Shown here in pieces: positions 22,424-34,668 of a stretch of 64,000 nt of DNA (position 1 is its first letter; each line of letters starts with the position of its first letter). The DNA lies in assembly GCA_021734835.1 (NCBI GenBank), contig JAIPIH010000003.1, forward strand, positions 62,001 to 126,000, in the 5' to 3' direction. The position numbers and the translations under genes are program-made. Source of the stretch: Candidatus Cloacimonadota bacterium. GTDB lineage: Bacteria; Cloacimonadota; Cloacimonadia; Cloacimonadales; TCS61. A model generated the notes under the pieces. That model worked only from the letters and a program-made list of their open reading frames with translations, had not been told where the DNA came from and did not search any database.

Positions 22424-23680
22424 TTAGTCCTTTAACTTTGAAATTATATGTTTGAAATTTAGTATAAGATTCAAGATCACACCTACTATTGCAGCAAGAC
22501 CCAGACCTTCTAACTGGAAGTTTCCAAAGGCGAATTTAGCTCCACCCAACCCTAAAACAAGCATAGCTGCACTTATCATGAGGATTTTAGCATCTGAGAA
22601 ATCCACTTGATGATCGACCATATTTTTAATACCAATTGATGAGATCATACCAAAAAGAAGTACAGAAATACCACCGATAACCGGACTTGGAATAGTTCCG
22701 ATAACAGCAGTAAATTTAGGAACAAATGATAAAATGATAGCGAAAAGAGCAGCAATTCTCATGATAACCGGATTGAAATTACCTGTAAGTGCAACAGCAC
22801 CTGTATTTTCACTATAAGTTGTATTTGCCGGTCCACCAATCAATGCTGAGATAGATGTAGCAATACCATCACCCATCAAAGTTCTGTGGATTCCAGGTTT
22901 TTTAATAAAATCTTTACCTACAACATTTCCAATTGCTAAGATATCACCAAAGTGCTCAACAATTGTTACTATAGCAATAGGTACAATTATTGACATTGAG
23001 CGGGCAGAAAAAACAGGTAAAGAGAAGTTTGGTATTCCGAACCAAGCTGCAGCGTATACGCTTGAGAAATCAACGATGCCGATAATAACTGCTAAAATAT
23101 ATCCAGAGATCAGTGCTATAAGAACGGGAAGCATTGATAAAAGTTTTCGTCTTCTTTTTTCAAAGAAAACTTTTACAAAAATTGCTACTGCAAATGTAAA
23201 TAGTGCAACACCCCAACAACCATTTACACCGATTTTTTCTACAATGCCTGCTGCATATGTCCCATTGGCATTACTAATTGCAACTGGAGCTAAGATCAAA
23301 CCGATAAGAATGATAATAGGTCCGGTAACGAAAGGTGGTAATATCTTATGTAAAATTCTAGCATCTATAAACCTAAAAATGATTGCAACAACTACATACA
23401 ATAAACCAGCGATAACGATTCCACCTAATGCTTCCGGTAATGAGCCGCCTTTAGCTGTGGCAACTGCGATAATACCAGGGATAAAAGCAAAAGATGAACC
23501 CAAAAATACGGGTACTTGAAATTTTGTCAGGACATGAAATATTAAAGTACCAATACCAGCTGCGAAAAGTGTAACTCCCACATCCAGCCCTGTGATCAAA
23601 GGAACAAGAACAGTAGCACCGAACATAACGAACATGTGCTGAAAACCAAGAACTAAATTGTTACCATTGAGATCTTTCAT
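22424..23680 (-). CDS. uraA: UraA-like NCS2 nucleobase permease
   Basis: I start at 23680, where AGGAGA precedes the ATG. The 418-residue protein has about fourteen membrane helices and NCS2 motifs. The VEHFGD and NTTYSENTG segments correspond to the two substrate glutamates of E. coli UraA (EHVGH, NTTYGENIG). PSPVIGGISVLLFGMI is also typical. This resembles uracil permeases more than XanQ-type xanthine carriers, by my reading. It lies 166 bases downstream of the catabolic operon on the same strand, with two dyads in the gap, so it may be coregulated. Uracil is the most likely substrate, not proven. Confidence 0.85.
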   Translation of the reverse strand: MKDLNGNNLVLGFQHMFVMFGATVLVPLITGLDVGVTLFAAGIGTLIFHVLTKFQVPVFLGSSFAFIPGIIAVATAKGGSLPEALGGIVIAGLLYVVVAIIFRFIDARILHKILPPFVTGPIIILIGLILAPVAISNANGTYAAGIVEKIGVNGCWGVALFTFAVAIFVKVFFEKRRRKLLSMLPVLIALISGYILAVIIGIVDFSSVYAAAWFGIPNFSLPVFSARSMSIIVPIAIVTIVEHFGDILAIGNVVGKDFIKKPGIHRTLMGDGIATSISALIGGPANTTYSENTGAVALTGNFNPVIMRIAALFAIILSFVPKFTAVIGTIPSPVIGGISVLLFGMISSIGIKNMVDHQVDFSDAKILMISAAMLVLGLGGAKFAFGNFQLEGLGLAAIVGVILNLILNFKHIISKLKD

Positions 23681-23711
23681 AAATTCTCCTTTCATTTTTT
23701 TTAACACTCAA

Positions 23712-23729
23712 CTAATGAACTTTCATTAG
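23712..23729 (-). promoter_or_regulatory. dyad upstream of the permease, candidate operator
   Basis: The perfect inverted repeat CTAATGAA-CT-TTCATTAG lies 32-49 bases before the uraA start. A two-base centre is too short for a good RNA hairpin, which points to a protein-binding dyad. Confidence 0.4.
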
Positions 23730-23770
23730 ACCCTAATTAATAAATTAATATATTAATTCTGCAAAAAGAA

Positions 23771-23787
23771 AATGAATATCATTCATT
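23771..23787 (-). promoter_or_regulatory. second dyad upstream of the permease, candidate operator
   Basis: The perfect inverted repeat AATGAAT-ATC-ATTCATT shares the AATGAA/TTCATT half-site with the dyad at 23712. On the minus strand it directly follows TTGCCA (23787-23792), a possible -35, so it would occupy the promoter spacer. It could instead be a weak terminator of the upstream operon. Confidence 0.35.
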
Positions 23788-23846
23788 GGCAAGAGAAAAT
23801 TTCTTCAGCTAATAAATTATTTCTTTCTTTTGCAATTTACTTCACT

Positions 23847-25151
23847 CTAAAATCTATTTTTTGTACATACTAATTTCTTATCCAAATTAAAAAGAGATTC
23901 ATCCTGATAATATCTTCCAATAAATTGGAGGCCGAAAGGCAGGTCATCGATAAATCCAAAAGGAATTGATAAAGTGGGAAGACCAAGATATGTCCAGGGA
24001 AGATTCATAGCGGGATCACCTGTGTTGTGCAGGCCAAGCGGCGCGGTAGATAATGTAGAAGGTGTGATCAGAATATCTATTTCATTTTCCGCCAAAAGGT
24101 TCTCCATTTTACTTCGTTCAATAGTTCTGCCTTGAATTGCCTGTTGTATTTGCAGTTCAGAGATCTTGAGTCCTTTATCATACAACTCAGATGAGGCAGG
24201 ATGATACAAATTTTTATATTTACCATACAAGTTTTGATGTGATTTAGCAAATTCAGCGGCTATCATTATGTTATGCTGCGCTGTAATTTCATCAATATTT
24301 TCTAAAGCCGGTATATACTTTATTCGCAGACCGGCATTTTTCAAATTATTAATTACTTTATTAAAAGCATTTAGCATTTCGAGTGAAGTTTGTTTTAAAT
24401 ACTTTCCTTCGGGAACTCCAAAAACTTGTTTTGAGGTAATTTCCTTAATTTGTCCATACCACTCATTACAAAGTATGGAAGCAACAACTTCAGCACCTTG
24501 TAAATCCTGAGAAAAAAAACCTATATGATCTGCTGAGGGAGAAAAGGGAATTACGCCTTTGGTTGAAATTCTGCCGAAACTTGGTTTGAACCCAAATGTA
24601 CCACAAAAAGAAGCAGGTCTTGTAATTGAGCCAACAGTTTGGGTTCCTAATGCGAGCGGGCAAAATCCTGCTGCAACTGCTGCTGCAGAACCACTACTGG
24701 ACCCACCGGGTGTGCGGTCAAAGTTATTTGGATTGCAGGTAGCGCTAGGATGAAAATATGCAAATTCTGTCGTTACCGTTTTGCCCAAGATAAGTGCACC
24801 GGATTTTTTTAGTTCGGTAACAACCTCTGCCTCTTCTCCGGAAAATTCCTTTGACGGTAATTCTGATCCGGCTTTTGTTTCAAAGCCGTTAATATTGAAA
24901 ATATCTTTTACACCAATAGGAACTCCAAATAACACCGGTCTTTTCTCAGTATCGGGAAATCTATTATAAAGTTGTCCAAGATCTTTATGTAATCGCCAGC
25001 GCCTATTTTTCTCTGGTAAAAATGACTTGATCTTAGTATCCCAAGTTTCTAATTTTTCACATAGATCTTCAATTAAATTTTCTGGTGTGATCGTTTTATT
25101 TTTTAAACGATTGATTGTATCTGATAGAGAACAATCAGAAACGAACTTCAT
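23847..25151 (-). CDS. amidase-signature hydrolase, malonamidase-like
   Basis: The 434-residue enzyme has the amidase-signature triad Lys82 (GVKD), cis-Ser151 (GGSSSGS) and nucleophile Ser175 (QTVGSITRPA). The Lys-Ser-Ser spacings of 69 and 24 equal those I recall for malonamidase E2 (Lys62, Ser131, Ser155). An Arg three residues after the nucleophile (GSxxR) also matches that enzyme, where it contacts the substrate carboxylate; GatA has Arg at +2. It hydrolyses an amide to acid and ammonia. As last gene of the catabolic operon it starts directly at the CoA-transferase stop (TAAATG). Malonamate or oxamate are candidate substrates; GatA function is unlikely. Confidence 0.8.
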   Translation of the reverse strand: MKFVSDCSLSDTINRLKNKTITPENLIEDLCEKLETWDTKIKSFLPEKNRRWRLHKDLGQLYNRFPDTEKRPVLFGVPIGVKDIFNINGFETKAGSELPSKEFSGEEAEVVTELKKSGALILGKTVTTEFAYFHPSATCNPNNFDRTPGGSSSGSAAAVAAGFCPLALGTQTVGSITRPASFCGTFGFKPSFGRISTKGVIPFSPSADHIGFFSQDLQGAEVVASILCNEWYGQIKEITSKQVFGVPEGKYLKQTSLEMLNAFNKVINNLKNAGLRIKYIPALENIDEITAQHNIMIAAEFAKSHQNLYGKYKNLYHPASSELYDKGLKISELQIQQAIQGRTIERSKMENLLAENEIDILITPSTLSTAPLGLHNTGDPAMNLPWTYLGLPTLSIPFGFIDDLPFGLQFIGRYYQDESLFNLDKKLVCTKNRF

Positions 25152-26342
25152 TTAAATCACACCTTCTTTTTTCAATTGTTTAATTTTTTTTTCATCGAAT
25201 CCCAGATACTTGGAGAGAACTTCTGATGTATGCTCACTTAGCTTTGGAACCGCACCACGCGTTGTTTCATCAGGGATAGAAGACATTTTGATCGGATTAC
25301 CGGCTATTTTAATTTTACCGGCCTTGTCATCATTCACCTCCACGATCATATTTCTGGCATGAATCTGTTTATCGTTCATTACTTTTTCAATATCATTTAT
25401 TGGTCCGCATGGAACACCGTAATTTTCTATCTGTTTAATCCATTCTGCAGCATTCTTGGTAATAAACAATTCTTCCAGTAAGGGTATCAGTATCTCAAGA
25501 TTTTCATTTCTCTCGGCATTGGTAGCAAATTTTGTATCATTTATCCAGTCGTCTTTTCCAACTGCTTTACAAAATTTCTGCCAGAGACTGTCATTCCCAA
25601 TTGGAAGTACAAAATAATCATCTTTTGCCATAAATGCTTGGAATGGACTTACAGTTGGGTGTCTGTTACCCAGCGGTTCAGGAGATTTACCTTCAACTTG
25701 ATAGCGGGTTAAGGCATTTTCTAATATCGCAACTTGACTATCCAGCATAGCAACATCAATTTTTTGGCCTTCACCGGTATTTTTCAGATGATATAGAGCA
25801 GCACTTATTCCGATAGCAGTGAACATACCAGCAGTAATATCACCTGTTGACATTCCAACCCGAGTGGGAGGAGTATCCGGCCAACCGGTGATGCTCATAA
25901 TCCCGCCTCTGGCTTGTGCGAGTAGGTCATAAGCTGGTTTCTTGGAATCCGGTCCAGTATGTCCAAATCCTGAAGCAGCAGCATAAATGAGTTGAGGTTT
26001 GATTTTTTTCAAAACATCGTAACCTAAACCTAACTTTTCCATTGTTCCCGGTCGATAATTCTCTATCAGAACATCAAAATCCTTGAGCAGATCTTTCATT
26101 ATTGTTTTACCTTCTTCTGATTTCAAATTGAGGGTGATACTTTTTTTTGCTCGATTCAAACTTAGAAAATAAAGCCCCTGTTTATTAACAAAAGGACCAT
26201 ATTGTCTTGCATCATCGCCAAAACCTGGTATTTCTAATTTGACTACTTCTGCTCCCAGATCACTCAAAATGAGTGTACAAAATGGACCGGCAAGCGCTCT
26301 TGTAAGATCGAGAATTTTGATCCCTTCAAAAGGTTTTGGCAT
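25152..26342 (-). CDS. family III CoA-transferase (CaiB/BaiF)
   Basis: The 396-residue protein shows LDLTRALAGPFCTLILSDLGAEV at the N-terminus and STGDITAG with Asp168, the residue that forms the acyl anhydride in formyl-CoA:oxalate CoA-transferase. The family moves CoA between carboxylic acids. Its start overlaps the molybdenum-subunit gene by 17 bases and its stop abuts the amidase start. In context it probably activates the acid released by the amidase, such as malonate or oxalate. The CoA donor is not evident. Confidence 0.85.
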   Translation of the reverse strand: MPKPFEGIKILDLTRALAGPFCTLILSDLGAEVVKLEIPGFGDDARQYGPFVNKQGLYFLSLNRAKKSITLNLKSEEGKTIMKDLLKDFDVLIENYRPGTMEKLGLGYDVLKKIKPQLIYAAASGFGHTGPDSKKPAYDLLAQARGGIMSITGWPDTPPTRVGMSTGDITAGMFTAIGISAALYHLKNTGEGQKIDVAMLDSQVAILENALTRYQVEGKSPEPLGNRHPTVSPFQAFMAKDDYFVLPIGNDSLWQKFCKAVGKDDWINDTKFATNAERNENLEILIPLLEELFITKNAAEWIKQIENYGVPCGPINDIEKVMNDKQIHARNMIVEVNDDKAGKIKIAGNPIKMSSIPDETTRGAVPKLSEHTSEVLSKYLGFDEKKIKQLKKEGVI

Positions 26343-28686
26343 TTAATTCTCCTTTTTTTAAATTTGCTAAAGCAACTTTTTCTTTGGTTATCGGCATAGA
26401 TTTGATTCTTACGCCAAGTGCATCCTTTACAGCATTAGCTATCATTGGAGCAGCCGGGATCATTGTGTGTTCTCCAACACCCCTAGCTCCGAATGGACCA
26501 TCAGGTTGCGGAACTTCAACAATTATTGGAACTATTTCATCCGGCACATCTTTGGAAGTTGGGATCTTGTAATCTGTAAAGTTCGGATTCAGCATTTTAC
26601 CTTTATCATTAAAGCGCATATCTTCGTAAAGCACGGTTGCCAGCCCTTGGAGTAAGCCGCCAGTGATCTGTCCTTTTACTAATGACGGATTAATAGCTTT
26701 TCCGACATCGATCGCTTCAACTGCTTTTAGTACATGCATTTCACCGCTTTCTTTATCGATCGACATTGTAATAGCTGCTGCTCCGACAGTGTAATGAACA
26801 TTAGGATGACCACCCTGGCTAGTTTCAGGATCACTATTAGCTGATGCAAATTCCGGCATGAAAATACCGTGACCCATGATCGGACCGCCCTTAAATGAAA
26901 AATCTTCTGCCTGAATTCCGTTGATGACAAAATCTTTTAAAGGTAATTTAAAATCAGGTTTAGTTCTACATTTAACACTTTCATCTTCTAGAAAGAGCAT
27001 GTCTTTAGGCAAATACAAAGTTCTGGCAACAACATCAAATATCTGTTCCCTGGCATCGATAGCTGCTTTTCTAACAGCATTTCCGCATGACCATGTTACA
27101 TGCGAAGCAACGGTTTGCCATTCATACGGATTTCTGTCTGTGTCGGGTGTTTCTGTACGGATCTTTGTGATAGGTACAGCTAATATCTCGGCAGCTATTT
27201 GAGCCATTACAGTTAGATATCCTTGTCCCATATCCATACCGGAGACAAGAATGTTAACACTTCCGTCTTCACTAAATTTCAAAAATGCAGCAGAAGAAGC
27301 ATTAGGCGGCATTGCGGGAGCTTTCCAAATTAGCGAAAAGCCCTTGCCAACTTCTTTATTAGGATCATTAGAAGTTACTTTTTTATTCCATTCAATTTCT
27401 TTAGCAACTTCATCGATGCACTTAATTAAGCCATTGGGATTCATTTTCACGCCATAAGCTAAAATATCATTTTCTTTAATTGCATTTTTCTTTCTAATCT
27501 CAACCGGATCGATCTTTAAATGATCTGCAATTCTTGTAATATGCGATTCCAGACCAAACATAAACTCAGAATATCCAAATCCACGGTAAGCACCGCAAGG
27601 TGGCAAGTTGGTATAAAGACAAACTGAATCAATTGAAATATTTTGAAAACGATATGGACCGATAGCAGACAATCCAACCGCGTTAACTACATTTGCTCCA
27701 TATTCAGCTGATGCTCCTGTATCCCAATATAATTTATGATCTATTGCTGTGAAAGTGCCATCATTTTTTACACCAATCTTAATTTTTGCTTTAACTCCAA
27801 GACGTTGAGAGGTGTTATAAAATTCCTGTTCTCGCGACCAAATGATCTTTACCGGGTTACCCTTTACTTTAGTGGCAATAGCAGCAGCCAGAATTTCCAT
27901 TGATACTCCGGCCTTTCCGCCAAATCCACCACCAATTGGTGGAGCAATTACCCTGATATCTTTATGAGAAAACCCGAGAGGAGCAAGTGATTCAGCAAAT
28001 AGATTTCTCTGCGTATGCGGTGACTGGGAAGAAGCCCAAATGGTCAACCTGTCTGAAAGGTCGCAAAGTCCAACTGCAGCATGAGTTTCTAAAGGACAAT
28101 GTGCATAGCGAGGAACTGTATAAGTATCTTCCAGCACAAAATCAGCTTCATCAAAGCCTTTAACAACATCTCCACGACGGGTTTTTCGCCAATGTGCAAT
28201 GTTAGTGTTAGCTTGGGGGAAAAACCAGGGAACATGTTCATATTCACCCAGCTTTGGATGAATTCGCGGTACAGTTTCTTTTATTGATTCCATTTGATCA
28301 AAAATAGCTGTAAGCGGTTCATATTCCACCTTGATAAGCTTTGCTGCTCTTTTTGCTGTCTTTACATCTCTTGCAACAACAGCCGCAATCTGCTGACCTA
28401 CATATTTTACTGTATCCATGGCAAAAATAAATCTGTCTTTCATATAAAGACCAAATTTATAAGGAAAATCTTGAGCTGTGAATACCCCAACAACACCCGG
28501 ATATTTCTTAGCTTCAGAAACATCTAACTTGAGAATTTTGGCATGAGCTTCACTACTTTCCACGATTGCAACATAATGCAGATTCGGACCAAATTCAATA
28601 TCTTCAGTGTATCTAGTTGCTCCTGATATCTTTTCTTTGCCATCAATTCTGACATAAGGTTTTCCAACATGTCTCAACTTATTCAT
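26326..28686 (-). CDS. molybdenum hydroxylase large subunit
   Basis: I start at 28686, with GGAGG six bases upstream; the product is 786 residues. It belongs to the xanthine dehydrogenase/aldehyde oxidase family. It has the small a/b hammerhead domain (about 15-125), PIGGGFGGKAG, AYRGFGYSEF, GMDMGQG, and GARGVGEH with catalytic Glu739. It hydroxylates a C-H bond next to nitrogen or an aldehyde, using water. The CO dehydrogenase loop AYRCSFR is absent. The Glu that follows GGGFGGK in purine-oxidising enzymes is Ala here, which argues against classic xanthine oxidation. It overlaps the iron-sulfur subunit gene by eight bases. Confidence 0.9.
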   Translation of the reverse strand: MNKLRHVGKPYVRIDGKEKISGATRYTEDIEFGPNLHYVAIVESSEAHAKILKLDVSEAKKYPGVVGVFTAQDFPYKFGLYMKDRFIFAMDTVKYVGQQIAAVVARDVKTAKRAAKLIKVEYEPLTAIFDQMESIKETVPRIHPKLGEYEHVPWFFPQANTNIAHWRKTRRGDVVKGFDEADFVLEDTYTVPRYAHCPLETHAAVGLCDLSDRLTIWASSQSPHTQRNLFAESLAPLGFSHKDIRVIAPPIGGGFGGKAGVSMEILAAAIATKVKGNPVKIIWSREQEFYNTSQRLGVKAKIKIGVKNDGTFTAIDHKLYWDTGASAEYGANVVNAVGLSAIGPYRFQNISIDSVCLYTNLPPCGAYRGFGYSEFMFGLESHITRIADHLKIDPVEIRKKNAIKENDILAYGVKMNPNGLIKCIDEVAKEIEWNKKVTSNDPNKEVGKGFSLIWKAPAMPPNASSAAFLKFSEDGSVNILVSGMDMGQGYLTVMAQIAAEILAVPITKIRTETPDTDRNPYEWQTVASHVTWSCGNAVRKAAIDAREQIFDVVARTLYLPKDMLFLEDESVKCRTKPDFKLPLKDFVINGIQAEDFSFKGGPIMGHGIFMPEFASANSDPETSQGGHPNVHYTVGAAAITMSIDKESGEMHVLKAVEAIDVGKAINPSLVKGQITGGLLQGLATVLYEDMRFNDKGKMLNPNFTDYKIPTSKDVPDEIVPIIVEVPQPDGPFGARGVGEHTMIPAAPMIANAVKDALGVRIKSMPITKEKVALANLKKGELNAKTF

Positions 28687-29146
28687 TGTCAGCCTCCTCA
28701 ACTACATGCTGTACCGATTCTAAGATAGGTAAATACCCTGAACAGCGGCAAAGGTTTCCGGAAAGTGCTTCTTTGATCTCTTCCATAGTAGGTCGCGGAT
28801 TATGTTCCAATAACTCTGTGGTAGTTACGACAATTCCCGGTGCACAAAATCCACATTGAAAGGCATTATTATCCAGCATTGATTGCTGTACTTTAGTGAG
28901 TCCGGCTTGGGAGATCCCTTCAACCGTAACAATCTCGTGTCCGTCAACTTCGATTGCTAAAACCAGGCAACTACGCACACTTCTGCCATCAAGAAGAACA
29001 GCACAAGCACCACAATCACCTCTATCACAACCGCATTTCGGACTTTTTACACCCAATTTTTCTCGTAAAACATCAAGTAATATCTCTTCTGGCTCTACAT
29101 AGATTGACCGTATTTCGTTATTTAGTTTAAAAGTTATCTGTTTCAT
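28679..29146 (-). CDS. molybdenum hydroxylase [2Fe-2S] subunit
   Basis: The 155-residue protein has the plant-type cluster ligands Cys40, Cys45, Cys48 and Cys60 (GCDRGDCGAC, SC). The molybdopterin-proximal cluster ligands are Cys98, Cys101, Cys133 and Cys135 (QCGFC, LCRC). It passes electrons from molybdenum to FAD. The gene overlaps its neighbours on both sides (four bases with the FAD subunit, eight with the large subunit), so the three subunits are translated together. Confidence 0.93.
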   Translation of the reverse strand: MKQITFKLNNEIRSIYVEPEEILLDVLREKLGVKSPKCGCDRGDCGACAVLLDGRSVRSCLVLAIEVDGHEIVTVEGISQAGLTKVQQSMLDNNAFQCGFCAPGIVVTTTELLEHNPRPTMEEIKEALSGNLCRCSGYLPILESVQHVVEEADNE

Positions 29147-30006
29147 AATCTACCACCTTTCATTGATGTCAGAGCTTTTTTAAATCCTCTATTGAACATA
29201 ACCTTCATCATATGAGTCCTATATTCAGCTGAAGAGCGGATATCTGAGATTGGGGAAATCTCATCTGATATAATATCACCGGCTTTAGCTAAGATCTCTT
29301 CATTGATCTCTTTACCCTGAAGGTATTCTTCCAATTTATACAGTCTTTTTGGAACTGGACCTACTGCGCAGGAGGCAAAACGATAATTTTTTACACTATC
29401 CACCAAAATACCGATCCCAGCTTGAGCCAGATCTTCTCCTTGATACCGACCTAATTTTTCATAACCACCGGTATGCTTGGAAAGAGGGATATTGATACTG
29501 ATGACAATTTCATCGGAAGCTAAAATTGTTTTCTTTGGACCTGTAAACCAGTTGTGAATAGACACATTTTTTTTCTCTGTGGCATTTTGAACTACTATCT
29601 CTGCATCATAAACAAGCAAAGCTGGAGCAGAGTCAATACTGGGTACAGCAGAACATATGTTCCCGGCGAGAGTTGCTCGATTTCTAATACCGACTGAAGC
29701 CACTTTTTTACAAGCTTCCCACAAGATAGGCAACTTCTTTTGAATTTCCTGAGATTCAATTAACTCAGTAAATGTAACGCCTGCTCCTATAATTACTTTA
29801 TCCTTCTCTACCTTGATATTGTTCAGCTCTTCAATTCCTTTCAAATCAATCACCAACTCGGTTTTTAGCAATTCTTCCTTCAGATAAACAATCAAGTCGG
29901 TACCGCCAGCTAATATTTTTGATTTTCCTCTTTTCTCAGCCAGCAGCTGAAGAGCTTCTTTAATATTTTTCGGTTTTTTATATTCAAAGTCATTTATTAT
30001 ACCCAT
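29143..30006 (-). CDS. molybdenum hydroxylase FAD subunit
   Basis: The 287-residue protein has the FAD loops ILAGGTDLIV (about 36-45) and GIRNRATLAGNICSAVP, and the C-terminal domain of the family. It completes a three-subunit dehydrogenase with the next two genes. Electrons probably pass to NAD+ or another carrier. It follows the cyclase gene after a 50-base gap, the largest gap in this operon. Confidence 0.92.
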   Translation of the reverse strand: MGIINDFEYKKPKNIKEALQLLAEKRGKSKILAGGTDLIVYLKEELLKTELVIDLKGIEELNNIKVEKDKVIIGAGVTFTELIESQEIQKKLPILWEACKKVASVGIRNRATLAGNICSAVPSIDSAPALLVYDAEIVVQNATEKKNVSIHNWFTGPKKTILASDEIVISINIPLSKHTGGYEKLGRYQGEDLAQAGIGILVDSVKNYRFASCAVGPVPKRLYKLEEYLQGKEINEEILAKAGDIISDEISPISDIRSSAEYRTHMMKVMFNRGFKKALTSMKGGRL

Positions 30007-30056
30007 AATATCTCCTCAATTATTAACTCGCATCCTAACAGAAACATAAAGTCTAA

Positions 30057-30869
30057 TTATACTTCCATGGCTATGACACGACACATAGATGATTCCAATT
30101 CAATTCCGCGTAGAGGGAATAATCCAATCCAAATACGTTTGTTATTCACTTTGTTTATCTCTCCACCCAGGTTTTCAGCATGCACTAAGCCTTTTGGGAA
30201 TAAGTTCAAATGCATTACCTGATAATATTCTTCCAATGGGAACATCTCGTCCCATTTTTTTCCATAATCTTTTAGTAATTTCTCTTCTGCCGCTTTAAAG
30301 GGTTTCGGATGCCAATCGCGAATAATTGTATTCATTGGATGGTCAGCACTTCCACAGTCAACTCCGATCCATTTGATCTCCATTTTCAAAGCCCATTTAT
30401 GAAAATCAGGACTTGGTCCGGGATGTTTTACAAAATAGCGAACTTCATCTGATTCTGGTTGATCCCAGCTGTATCTATGATATCCGGTATTGATAATAAG
30501 GATATCACCCTTTTTGATCTCAACTTTTTTCATGAGCATTTCCGGTGTGTAAAGTGAATAATCGGATACTTCATCAGAAATGTCCACAACAACACCTTGT
30601 CCAATCCAGTCATGTATCGGCACTTCACCGATCGTTTTCCCACTGCCAAAAAAATGAATTTGTCCATCTATATGTGTGCCGACATGATTACTGGTTTTAA
30701 TTATCTGGCCATTAGCTCCCTGTCCCATATGAGCACCGGCAAGTCGTTTGAAATATTGGATTTGCATGGGCATATAGCTCGGCCATGGTGGTGTGTGTAT
30801 ACTTAATCTCTGTGTAAGATCATAAACTTTTACTTTGTCCATAAAATTCAAAAATTCTTCTTGTTTCAT
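30057..30869 (-). CDS. cyclase-family metal-dependent hydrolase
   Basis: The 270-residue protein carries the cyclase signature HVGTHIDGQIH: His62, His66 and Asp68 are likely metal ligands and His72 the catalytic base. The family includes kynurenine formamidase and isatin hydrolase, which open amide bonds, the latter in a ring. A role opening the ring made by the molybdenum hydroxylase is a natural inference. It overlaps the next upstream gene, allG, by four bases. Substrate unknown. Confidence 0.82.
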   Translation of the reverse strand: MKQEEFLNFMDKVKVYDLTQRLSIHTPPWPSYMPMQIQYFKRLAGAHMGQGANGQIIKTSNHVGTHIDGQIHFFGSGKTIGEVPIHDWIGQGVVVDISDEVSDYSLYTPEMLMKKVEIKKGDILIINTGYHRYSWDQPESDEVRYFVKHPGPSPDFHKWALKMEIKWIGVDCGSADHPMNTIIRDWHPKPFKAAEEKLLKDYGKKWDEMFPLEEYYQVMHLNLFPKGLVHAENLGGEINKVNNKRIWIGLFPLRGIELESSMCRVIAMEV

Positions 30870-32293
30870 AATAAACTCCTTTCTTTATTTTTTAAAAAAA
30901 TTTTTGCTAAACCTTCTGCCGCTTTTATAAATGGTTCCATAGGTGCACTTAATACTCCGGCTCCAACTTGTCCTATTCCCGGATCTTTGTGAGCAACTCC
31001 AGTATCGATAAATGGCAGTATTCCTTTTTCAACAACTTTGGTAACATCTATTCCTGTTGGGGTACCGCGGAAATTCAGATATGGAATTTGATAAACGTTA
31101 TTTTCTCCAAAAGTGATCTCATACATGGTCAGTGTGTAGTTGACAGCGTCATTAGCAGTACCACCAACAAATTGAACGATCGCGGGAGAAGCGGCTATGG
31201 CAAAACCTCCTAATCCGACAGTTTCAGTGATTGAGCTATCTCCGATATCAGGGTTGGCATCTTCTTTGCTGAATCCGGGAAAATAGAGTGCGTCCGGAAC
31301 AAGGGCTTTCCCCACGAACCATGAGTCACTAGTTCCGGCAAGCTGCAGACCAAAATCAGTTCCATTCCTGGTCATAGCAATTACAATACTGCTCCCGGCA
31401 ATATTGCGGGCAGCATCCAAAGTTACTTTTGCTGCCGGCATGGAAAGATTTAAAAAGAAATGATCATTGCCATTGATAAAATCCAGGACTTTGGCTGTTA
31501 TCTCTGGATCTTTGCAAGTTTTCACAATTGCAGGTGCAATTGTCCTATAAAATAGGGACGTGCCGGCTCGATTTCTATTATGTACTTCATCTCCCATGTG
31601 AAGAGCTTGAGCAATCATATTTTTCAGATCAATTTTACCAAGAAGTTGAACTGCATTCTTTAAAGCAGGATACAAAATTTCTTCCATCCACTTAAGTTTT
31701 GTTATCGTTTCAGGATCATAAGCTCCATAACGTAAAACTTTTCCTAAGCCTTCATTTAGTGTGCAATAAGCAAAGTTGCCATATTCTTGGTTTTTTAGTA
31801 CGAATACAGGCATAGAGGCTGAAACAACACCAGCCATTGGACCAACAGTGTTATGTTCATGACAGGGAGAAAACTTAATTTTACCCGATTCACCTAATTT
31901 TTCCGCATCCTTGAAATCTTTTGCCATTCCTTCGTAGATCATAGCACCTATCATTGCTCCTTTCATTGGACCACTCATCCTGTTCCATGTCAAGGGCGGA
32001 CCGGAATGAAGCAGCAGATCATCCTTCATACCCGGAATTACATTTCGAGCAATATCAAGTCCGACTAAAAATGGTTTACCATTTAAAATTATTTCTAAAG
32101 CTTTTTTATTAGCAGTCTCAATAACTTCTTTGTTTTTCTGCAATGTGTTCAGAGTCGGTTCGGAAAGGTTGGCGGGAGGAGTCCATTCTATATTAGTAAC
32201 TTTTTGACCTTGTTTTTCCAGATCATCTTTAAAAGTTTCCAGACCAATGTTGACGACTTCTACTTTTTTCCCAAACAATTTTTTAAACTTCAT
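30866..32293 (-). CDS. allG: AllG (YlbE, DUF1116), carbamoyltransferase subunit
   Basis: The 475-residue protein matches the DUF1116 family. In E. coli, YlbE (AllG) acts with FdrA (AllF) and YlbF (AllH) as oxamate transcarbamylase. That enzyme makes carbamoyl phosphate and oxamate from oxalurate in anaerobic allantoin breakdown. All three partners occur here in a row. GGAGG precedes the ATG, and the stop overlaps the cyclase start. Carbamate kinase, the usual next enzyme, is not in this window. Confidence 0.88.
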   Translation of the reverse strand: MKFKKLFGKKVEVVNIGLETFKDDLEKQGQKVTNIEWTPPANLSEPTLNTLQKNKEVIETANKKALEIILNGKPFLVGLDIARNVIPGMKDDLLLHSGPPLTWNRMSGPMKGAMIGAMIYEGMAKDFKDAEKLGESGKIKFSPCHEHNTVGPMAGVVSASMPVFVLKNQEYGNFAYCTLNEGLGKVLRYGAYDPETITKLKWMEEILYPALKNAVQLLGKIDLKNMIAQALHMGDEVHNRNRAGTSLFYRTIAPAIVKTCKDPEITAKVLDFINGNDHFFLNLSMPAAKVTLDAARNIAGSSIVIAMTRNGTDFGLQLAGTSDSWFVGKALVPDALYFPGFSKEDANPDIGDSSITETVGLGGFAIAASPAIVQFVGGTANDAVNYTLTMYEITFGENNVYQIPYLNFRGTPTGIDVTKVVEKGILPFIDTGVAHKDPGIGQVGAGVLSAPMEPFIKAAEGLAKIFLKNKERSLL

Positions 32294-32303
32294 AGCTCCT
32301 CCA

Positions 32304-33857
32304 CTATATATTAATATTCTGAATGATCAATTTTGTAATGTCAGCAGCAGCTGCATTAGAAGGCATTACAATCACATTATTATTTTCTAATTCAGTAATG
32401 ATACCCTCTCTGTTTTGCGGGTCATTTTTTGTTCCGGTAACAGAACAAATAAGTATTATTCCTGATTTTTCCCGATTTATTTTTTTTAATATCGGTAGAA
32501 TTTCATTTAAGGGTTCAGAATTTGCGCCATATCCCAGAACAAGATCAAAAAGAATGATTGCTGTTTCCTTGTCATCAGCTTCTTGCAATAGTCTTTTGTT
32601 TCTCAGATCAAAATCCATCATTGGATGTAAACGGCCAACTGTAAATTCATCTTCACCCAGATCAACTAAAGTGTGCTCTTTACTATTCCAGGAATCTTTT
32701 AAAGAATAAGTTTTATCGGAAGCCCGGTTGCTGTAAATATTCTTGATGCTTTGTTTTAAGATCATTTGCGCTTCATCACACAGTGTACCACCACTAAATA
32801 AACCGCGAATATATTTCCTGCCGGGAGTAATTTTATTTAAGTGGTTGTTAACGATTTCAATATAGTCCTTTTTTCTCTCAGAAAGGAATTTTTCTATCTG
32901 AGCCGTATCAAATCCGCCTGCAACAGCACACGCAAGCAAGGCAGCTTCTTCCAAAGTTTGAGCAGCAATAGCACCGTTTTCTTTCATAATACTTTTATCA
33001 GCTCCTAAAAATATACTGATGACCGGTTTTGATATACCTTTTAGTTTTGAATTGATCTTTTTAAGAACTGAAAGATGAGGTGGTTTTGAAACCAGAACTA
33101 TAACCTCTGTTTGATCATCGTTCTCCAATGCATCCAAAGCTGCGAGGAACATCATACCTCCAACTTCGGCTTTGATGTCGCGTCCTCCAGTACCGATAGC
33201 CTGTGAAATACCGAAACCTTCTTCTGAAATGATTGAGCTGATTTCCTGTAATCCTGTTCCTGAGGCCGCAACAATTCCTATATTTCCTTGATTTACAGCA
33301 TTTGAAAATGCTAAAGGGACATGATTGATAATTGCTGTTCCACAATCCGGTCCCATCATAAGCAGATCATGATCAAGAGCGTATGTTTTTAGTTCAATTT
33401 CTGTAGAGAGTGAAACATTATCAGAAAAAAGCATGACGTTCAATCCTAGTTGTAAAGCCTTCATCGCTTCATGGCCCGCATATCTGCCTGCCAGTGATAT
33501 CAGAGCTAAATTAGATTCAGGATTAATTTTGACTGCACTTTCCAGACTTTTAGGTGAGAAAGAACCTGACTCGTCTTTTTTATTTCTTATCTCGATCAGC
33601 ATTTCATTAACACGTTCAAATATCTCTTTAAATTTTTTCTCATGGTCAGATTCAATAACTATCAGAAGATCTGTATCATCATATTGAGCAAATTTCGGTA
33701 GATATAGTCCGGCGGTTTTCAAGATTGATTTATTTTCCTGAGTTGCCATGACAACTGTTGCATCCTTCACATACTCCATTTTGGCAATATCTTTACCGAC
33801 TATCATTAAACTAACCGAATCGAAATATTCACCTTTTCTAACCAAACTTTTTTTCAT
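32304..33857 (-). CDS. fdrA: FdrA/AllF, carbamoyltransferase subunit
   Basis: The 517-residue protein has the succinyl-CoA-synthetase-alpha-like fold of FdrA. It shows a repeated Rossmann segment (LALISLAGRYAGHEAMKAL), MMGPDCGTAI near residue 170, IGIVAASGTGLQE, and a C-terminal ligase-like domain. It is the partner of AllG and AllH in oxamate transcarbamylase. Its start overlaps the end of allH by 20 bases. Old annotations as an acyl-CoA synthetase or FtsH suppressor reflect fold or phenotype, not the reaction. Confidence 0.88.
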   Translation of the reverse strand: MKKSLVRKGEYFDSVSLMIVGKDIAKMEYVKDATVVMATQENKSILKTAGLYLPKFAQYDDTDLLIVIESDHEKKFKEIFERVNEMLIEIRNKKDESGSFSPKSLESAVKINPESNLALISLAGRYAGHEAMKALQLGLNVMLFSDNVSLSTEIELKTYALDHDLLMMGPDCGTAIINHVPLAFSNAVNQGNIGIVAASGTGLQEISSIISEEGFGISQAIGTGGRDIKAEVGGMMFLAALDALENDDQTEVIVLVSKPPHLSVLKKINSKLKGISKPVISIFLGADKSIMKENGAIAAQTLEEAALLACAVAGGFDTAQIEKFLSERKKDYIEIVNNHLNKITPGRKYIRGLFSGGTLCDEAQMILKQSIKNIYSNRASDKTYSLKDSWNSKEHTLVDLGEDEFTVGRLHPMMDFDLRNKRLLQEADDKETAIILFDLVLGYGANSEPLNEILPILKKINREKSGIILICSVTGTKNDPQNREGIITELENNNVIVMPSNAAAADITKLIIQNINI

Positions 33858-34668
33858 TTAAAACTCCTTTTAAAGTAAAAATAAATCCTGTTAACATATC
33901 AGAGCCTGATGTATGGCCTGAATTAGTCACCTGTTTTGTATAAGATGAGATTGAAGTAATATTGTTTTCCTTCATTGCCTTTAATAAATTAAAGAAGTTT
34001 TCGTAAAATCTATTTGAGTGAGCATATTTTAAGAAATTATTTGAGATCAGATTATTACCTAAAGAATTCTGATAGCACTTATCTATCAAATCAGTAATTT
34101 TAAAATATTTTCCTTTATTTATGTAATTGAGAGCGTAGAGAATTCCACAATTAAAATCATCACCACTGGGAGTAAGCCCAAAACCTAATCCCTTCATCTT
34201 GTGACCGATGGCGGGTAAATTATCTATATTAAACTTACTGGTAACCAACTTAACTTGCTGCACAAATTGTATTTCAAATGCAGATCTAAAATTATTTTCA
34301 TGCTCAGGAAATAATAAAAAACTAAGATCAATCCCAGGCGGATGTTTTGAAAATTCATTTAACAAAATTTCTATTTGTTTTACTAGCAGCTTAGGATCAT
34401 AAATAAAAATATCTTCGATTTCTGTTTTAATCGGCTGAATGGCAAAGATAAGTCCTCCAAGATAAAGATGGCAATCACTTACCGATAGAGAATCATTCTC
34501 AGTTTCAGGTATTTTATCTAAAACAATATTATTGGGACCTCTGCCTACTTTTTCAGTTACCAGAGATATTAACTCATTATCACGGGCAAAATTTTGGACA
34601 TTAGTAAATTTGGAGTGTAATTTATACGTACCCTGATTAATACAAGCTCCAAAATTTATTATCTCCAT
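33838..34668 (-). CDS. allH: AllH (YlbF, DUF2877), carbamoyltransferase subunit
   Basis: The 276-residue protein carries the DUF2877 signature GLGFGLTPSGDDFNCG (about 157-172). It is the third subunit of the AllFGH transcarbamylase and the first gene of the nine-gene operon. Its promoter region holds a TTGACA (34738-34743) overlapping one arm of a ten-base dyad. The ATG lacks a strong ribosome site (CGGGGTTTT precedes it). Confidence 0.85.
   Translation of the reverse strand: MEIINFGACINQGTYKLHSKFTNVQNFARDNELISLVTEKVGRGPNNIVLDKIPETENDSLSVSDCHLYLGGLIFAIQPIKTEIEDIFIYDPKLLVKQIEILLNEFSKHPPGIDLSFLLFPEHENNFRSAFEIQFVQQVKLVTSKFNIDNLPAIGHKMKGLGFGLTPSGDDFNCGILYALNYINKGKYFKITDLIDKCYQNSLGNNLISNNFLKYAHSNRFYENFFNLLKAMKENNITSISSYTKQVTNSGHTSGSDMLTGFIFTLKGVLNEKKFG

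Follow-up and report, generated by a model that had tools for sequence, protein, structure and literature searches.

This analysis concerns a ten-gene locus at positions 22424-34668 (minus strand) of the window, the whole stretch of 64,000 nucleotides of DNA that was analysed, in a Candidatus Cloacimonadota metagenome-assembled genome of 2.67 Mb. It encodes homologues of the three subunits of Escherichia coli AllFGH, together with a cyclase-family hydrolase, a molybdenum (Mo) hydroxylase, a coenzyme A (CoA)-transferase, an amidase and a nucleobase permease. An initial annotation, made from the sequence alone, had read these genes as an oxidative pyrimidine pathway that conserves carbamoyl phosphate. 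The genes are the following:

33838..34668, minus strand: AllH homologue (DUF2877), small subunit of a putative N-acylurea carbamoyltransferase (Pfam AllH, 81 bits)
32304..33857, minus strand: FdrA/AllF homologue, succinyl-CoA ligase-like subunit (NCBIfam NF004760 FdrA, 481 bits; cut-off 433)
30866..32293, minus strand: AllG homologue (DUF1116) (Pfam AllG, 324 bits; solved relative 3clq, E 8.6e-126)
30057..30869, minus strand: cyclase-family metal-dependent hydrolase, proposed ring-opening barbiturate amidohydrolase (Pfam Cyclase, 119 bits)
29143..30006, minus strand: flavin adenine dinucleotide (FAD) subunit of the Mo hydroxylase (Pfam FAD_binding_5, 171 bits; CO_deh_flav_C, 68 bits)
28679..29146, minus strand: [2Fe-2S] (FeS) subunit of the Mo hydroxylase (Pfam Fer2_2, 97.5 bits; Fer2, 26 bits)
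26326..28701, minus strand: Mo-cofactor subunit of the Mo hydroxylase, proposed uracil 6-hydroxylase converting uracil to barbiturate (Pfam MoCoBD_1/2, 254/225 bits)
25152..26342, minus strand: family III CoA-transferase, proposed to activate malonate (Pfam CoA_transf_3, 426 bits)
23847..25151, minus strand: amidase-signature hydrolase, proposed malonamate amidohydrolase (Pfam Amidase, 236 bits)
22424..23707, minus strand: NCS2 nucleobase permease, uracil type (Pfam Xan_ur_permease, 303 bits; UraA best solved match)

The Pfam scores for AllG, AllH, Cyclase, CoA_transf_3, Amidase and Xan_ur_permease are far above the respective cut-offs, and the Pfam and NCBIfam matches recovered all ten genes where the initial annotation had placed them, in the order allH-fdrA-allG-cyclase-FAD-FeS-Mo-CoA-transferase-amidase-permease. 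From allH to the amidase gene, the successive intergenic distances are -20, 10, -4, 50, -4, -23, -17 and 0 bases, and the permease gene lies 139 bases beyond the amidase gene. The ten genes form one tightly packed operon.

A profile of the cyclase retrieved at least 559 relatives in named genomes, of which the best 80 (73-92% identical to the window copy) were collected with their flanking DNA. Among these 80, the phyla represented are Cloacimonadota, Bacteroidota, Chlorobiota, Ignavibacteriota, Elusimicrobiota, Bdellovibrionota, Kiritimatiellota, Caldisericota, Myxococcota, Zixibacteria, Eisenbacteria, Riflebacteria and others. The core common to the loci is allH-fdrA-allG-cyclase-FAD-FeS-Mo, and uncultured anaerobes from well over a dozen phyla carry the cluster almost unaltered. 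In 55 of 78 loci from a collection of named genomes, the genes for AllG and a Mo-hydroxylase subunit lie no more than 6.5 kb from the cyclase gene and in the same orientation, and contig edges cut many of the loci short. Of the 36 loci that have at least 6.5 kb of sequence on both sides, 33 contain AllG. The linkage of AllG and the Mo hydroxylase to the cyclase is not due to chance, and its maintenance in so many lineages argues for a single function. The nearest relatives in the cyclase scan belong to Candidatus Cloacimonadota, and the AllG of a locus from a same-genus genome is identical to that of Candidatus Tenebribacter davisii. Some Cloacimonadota loci contain additional genes, as judged by eye: a HIT-like protein of about 145 amino acids near the Mo-subunit and CoA-transferase genes (L042, L053, L056, L058, L069, L108, L115, L117, L128), and a methyltransferase-like gene of 327 amino acids between the cyclase and the FAD subunit (L035, L045, L060, L063, L074, L076, L077).

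The permease points to the class of substrate. Its best solved match is UraA (E 5e-72), and it carries Glu at the positions equivalent to UraA 241 and 290, the latter being Gln in the xanthine and urate carriers XanQ and UacT. Every operon-linked permease, including those of Cloacimonadota, Chlorobiota, Caldisericota (a divergent copy) and others, likewise has both Glu residues, the one at UraA position 290 being the uracil-type mark. The Mo subunit, when aligned with bovine xanthine oxidase, keeps the equivalents of the catalytic Gln767 and Glu1261, but the purine-binding residues are absent: Ala, Ser and Pro stand in place of Glu802, Arg880 and Phe1009, all five residues being numbered as in the bovine enzyme.

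In the cyclase, the HxGTHxDGxxH motif is intact and the predicted model is closest to isatin hydrolase, which opens a ring lactam. The fold and the motif are shared with isatin hydrolase and kynurenine formamidase (PF04199), but the identity in structural alignments is only about 15-20%. The AtzD/TrzD/Bar barbiturase family (PF09663) has no match in the host genome, where the cyclase-family enzyme stands instead, and occurs in only 3 of the 387 genomes searched, all three of them distant.

Parallel loci connect relatives of these enzymes with pyrimidine genes. On haloarchaeal plasmids, a Mo hydroxylase and NCS2 permeases accompany cyclase relatives of 42-46% identity; the relative in Halostagnicola larsenii is flanked by a cytosine deaminase and a cytosine permease. 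In another bacterial class, AtzD/TrzD/barbiturase-family enzymes stand where the cyclase would be: in two loci of the order fdrA-allG-Mo hydroxylase-AtzD/barbiturase family (L229, L231), in an allG-Mo hydroxylase-AtzD family locus (L177) and in one in which the end of a Mo hydroxylase is followed by allG-cytosine deaminase-AtzD family-NCS2-AllH (L220). Three further loci of this class (L223, L224, L228) encode an enzyme with the published barbiturase signature (N195, H321, K325, V345), 63-64% identical to the Rhodococcus barbiturase Bar, beside a Mo hydroxylase and a cytosine deaminase. The position of these bona fide barbiturases would place the Mo hydroxylases at the uracil-to-barbiturate step. 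The CoxL-like Mo hydroxylase of the latter three loci is a candidate for the uracil dehydrogenase gene of the classical oxidative pyrimidine pathway, for which no assigned gene was found in the literature searched.

In E. coli, the oxamic transcarbamylase AllFGH converts oxalurate to oxamate and carbamoyl phosphate in allantoin breakdown (PMC11326118). All three subunit families are co-present in the operon (Pfam AllG and AllH, and NCBIfam FdrA above its cut-off) and, as in the E. coli AllFGH/AllK system (PMC11326118), they would release carbamoyl phosphate when cleaving an N-acylurea, in a genome that has carbamate kinase. The operon differs from that system in its partner genes, in the lack of linked allantoin genes and in the gene order H-F-G, which is that of E. 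coli yahEFG. In the C-terminal part of the AllH homologue, identity is 30% with YlbF/AllH of E. coli and 29% with YahE. AllG is about 45% identical both to YahG (468 residues) and to the proven E. coli subunit (410 residues), and groups apart from the two. FdrA shares 45% identity with YahF but only 36% with the proven E. coli FdrA; because it is closer to the uncharacterised YahF, the substrate specificity of the complex is only inferred.

By sequence, the amidase has malonamidase E2 (1ock) as its best solved match (E 2e-49). Arg158 of malonamidase was dropped as a mark of specificity because it is non-diagnostic, the surrounding region being regarded as common to the amidase-signature family. 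In four loci (L033, L131, L134, L136) the amidase is replaced by non-homologous stand-ins of the nitrilase superfamily, a substitution that speaks for hydrolysis of an amide at this point. In Ignavibacteria, Eisenbacteria, Lentisphaerae and some Cloacimonadota, three proteins stand in for the amidase and the CoA-transferase: a GNAT protein, a thiolase and, as assigned by eye, a DUF35-like protein. This module lies in the same operon in L039, L045, L076, L078, L097, L101, L103, L114, L132 and others, and thiolase and CoA-transferase are mutually exclusive, occurring together in none of the 78 loci. The predicted model of the GNAT-tail protein has a GNAT fold. An assignment as malonyl-CoA decarboxylase was rejected, as this enzyme was not found among the best 50 solved matches to the model.

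Carbamate kinase is encoded in the host genome, unlinked to the operon, and no linkage was seen in close relatives. The suggestion of the initial annotation that ATP (adenosine triphosphate) would be gained through this enzyme is supported by the presence of the gene, though not by its position. All 7 distant genomes with AllG have carbamate kinase, against 17 of the 64 that lack AllG (p = 0.0003, with no correction for relatedness). Outside the window, the carbamate kinase of the host lies in a complete-looking reductive uric acid cluster (L158; G000:C14:13500-33400). By eye, its genes are ssnA-, ygfK-, ygeY- and ygeX-like, with three YgeW-like carbamoyltransferases and several Mo hydroxylase subunits, a gene set that corresponds to the reductive uric acid pathway (PMC12507026). 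Both systems of this genome would break down a nucleobase anaerobically and involve a carbamoyltransferase as well as carbamate kinase, but the ygeW-ygfK-ssnA pathway (PMC12507026) acts on urate, by other genes and with an unrelated carbamoyltransferase family.

Gene content and linkage make it probable that the operon serves an anaerobic, oxidative breakdown of pyrimidines, from uracil via barbiturate, with phosphorolytic energy conservation. The NCS2 permease would import uracil, possibly also thymine, and the three-subunit Mo hydroxylase would hydroxylate uracil at C6 to barbiturate. The cyclase-family hydrolase may then open the barbiturate ring to ureidomalonate, as its family chemistry and the analogous barbiturase-family operons suggest. 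Oxalurate is the one-carbon-shorter homologue of ureidomalonate, and by analogy the AllFGH-type complex would use phosphate to split ureidomalonate into malonamate and carbamoyl phosphate. Malonamate would be hydrolysed by the amidase to malonate and ammonia, the CoA-transferase would form malonyl-CoA from malonate, and the carbamate kinase encoded elsewhere in the genome could use the carbamoyl phosphate to make one ATP. This sequence shares uracil, barbiturate, ureidomalonate and malonate with the oxidative pathway of Rhodococcus, which comprises uracil dehydrogenase, barbiturase and ureidomalonase. It differs from it in using a cyclase-family enzyme where Rhodococcus has a Toblerone-fold barbiturase, in a phosphorolysis that gives carbamoyl phosphate and malonamate rather than a hydrolysis that gives urea, in the activation to malonyl-CoA, and in its anaerobic hosts.

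The genes listed in the initial annotation and the reasoning behind its route hold, and the comparative evidence points to pyrimidines: the permeases are of the UraA type, cytosine deaminase and cytosine permease genes adjoin a cyclase relative, and barbiturase-family genes adjoin AllFG and Mo hydroxylases. Co-occurrence with pyrimidine genes is repeated, and linkage to purine or allantoin genes is absent. Several observations nevertheless weigh against a uracil pathway. The pocket of the Mo subunit indicates what the enzyme is not, rather than what it is. The haloarchaeal loci also contain xanthine-type permeases and a dihydropyrimidinase-like enzyme; because of the xanthine-type carriers these loci are suggestive only, and we do not claim them as purely pyrimidine loci. 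Carbamate kinase is nearly universal in Cloacimonadota with or without the operon and also serves the urate cluster. It therefore says little within this phylum and was rejected there as a specific marker of the operon, discriminating only among distant genomes. The CoA-transferase resembles oxalate CoA-transferase most, its best solved match being YfdE (4hl6); it scores 381 bits against the NCBIfam CoA:oxalate CoA-transferase equivalog, for which the cut-off is 522. In the Toblerone enzymes encoded beside AllFG the signature is mixed, with cyanurate-like R195, T321 and R325 plus A345; these enzymes were rejected as proven barbiturases, and the AllFG parallels may concern another ring. Finally, the GNAT-thiolase-DUF35 tail, present in many lineages, has no obvious malonate chemistry and falls outside the scheme of the initial annotation.

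The last two observations would also fit the same chemistry on a different ring, either thymine, which would pass through 5-methylbarbiturate and end as methylmalonyl-CoA, or some other cyclic N-acylurea, with AllFGH then acting on a homologue of ureidomalonate. The tail suggests that the carbon product is handled differently among lineages, and NCS2 permeases of the uracil type often transport thymine as well. However, the cytosine deaminases of the parallel loci give uracil and not thymine, and malonamidase is the nearest solved match of the amidase, so that we regard another ring as unlikely.

An oxalurate branch of purine degradation would account for the similarity of the CoA-transferase to YfdE, an acetyl-CoA:oxalate CoA-transferase, and for the proven activity of E. 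coli AllFGH (PMC11326118). The cyclase would open a hydantoin-type ring, such as parabanate, to oxalurate, AllFGH would produce oxamate and carbamoyl phosphate, and the amidase and CoA-transferase would lead through oxalate to oxalyl-CoA. Yet homologues of AllA, AllC, AllD, AllE, Gcl, Oxc, HyuA, RutA and RutB were not linked in any of 119 cluster loci, and a search of these loci for AllB gave one weak amidohydrolase cross-match (L065). Linked allantoin genes, which the initial annotation had named as evidence against its pyrimidine reading, were thus not found in the 119 loci. An allantoinase-like match of 329 bits in the host genome, below the cut-off and on a different contig, more probably represents the urate-pathway hydantoinase. 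Oxalyl-CoA decarboxylase scored above its cut-off in none of 22 cluster genomes. Together with the uracil-type permeases, the Mo subunit without purine-binding residues, the kinship of FdrA to YahF and, in the host, an existing reductive-urate cluster that encodes carbamoyltransferases of its own (PMC12507026), this makes the oxalurate branch quite improbable.

AllFGH relatives also occur beside genes for cyanurate and biuret breakdown. Plasmid pSR8 of Aminobacter sp. SR38 (L170) carries an operon of fdrA, DUF1116, cyanuric acid hydrolase and carbamate kinase with a BMP-type ABC transporter, which suggests phosphorolysis of a cyanurate breakdown product; a match of the same score is present on the Klebsiella plasmid NZ_CP084773. 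In Peptoclostridium a biuret hydrolase-like gene adjoins AllFGH, and in nitrifiers biuret hydrolase is found beside allFGHK (PMC12625717). A cyanurate- or biuret-type metabolism in the window, in which this AllFGH clade would phosphorolyse biuret or carboxybiuret and the Mo enzyme would supply another azine, is nevertheless very improbable, given the absence of a PF09663 enzyme from the host and its rarity among the genomes searched, an amidase and a CoA-transferase that imply an organic acid product and not urea, and the uracil-type permease.

The Aminobacter and Peptoclostridium associations fit a class of N-acylurea phosphorylases. Since oxalurate, ureidomalonate and biuret are all N-acylureas, the AllFGH relatives would be one such class. 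Whether AllFGH and YahEFG are general N-acylurea phosphorylases (acting on oxalurate, ureidomalonate and possibly biuret) with a saving of one ATP for each ring, in a widespread and undescribed anaerobic pyrimidine pathway with cyclase-opened barbiturate, is in our estimate evenly balanced.

A recent paper lists four routes of pyrimidine breakdown, the oxidative, reductive, Rut and URC routes (PMC12507026). We know of none among them that yields carbamoyl phosphate, and within the collection of papers searched, for AllFGH as well as for barbiturase and ureidomalonate, none describes the route proposed here. If it is correct, sediment and digester anaerobes of many phyla would possess a fifth, energy-conserving pyrimidine route. 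Hundreds of genes annotated as 'cyclase family' or DUF1116/DUF2877 would then gain a function, E. coli yahEFG-type paralogues would have a testable one, and there would be gene candidates for uracil dehydrogenase.

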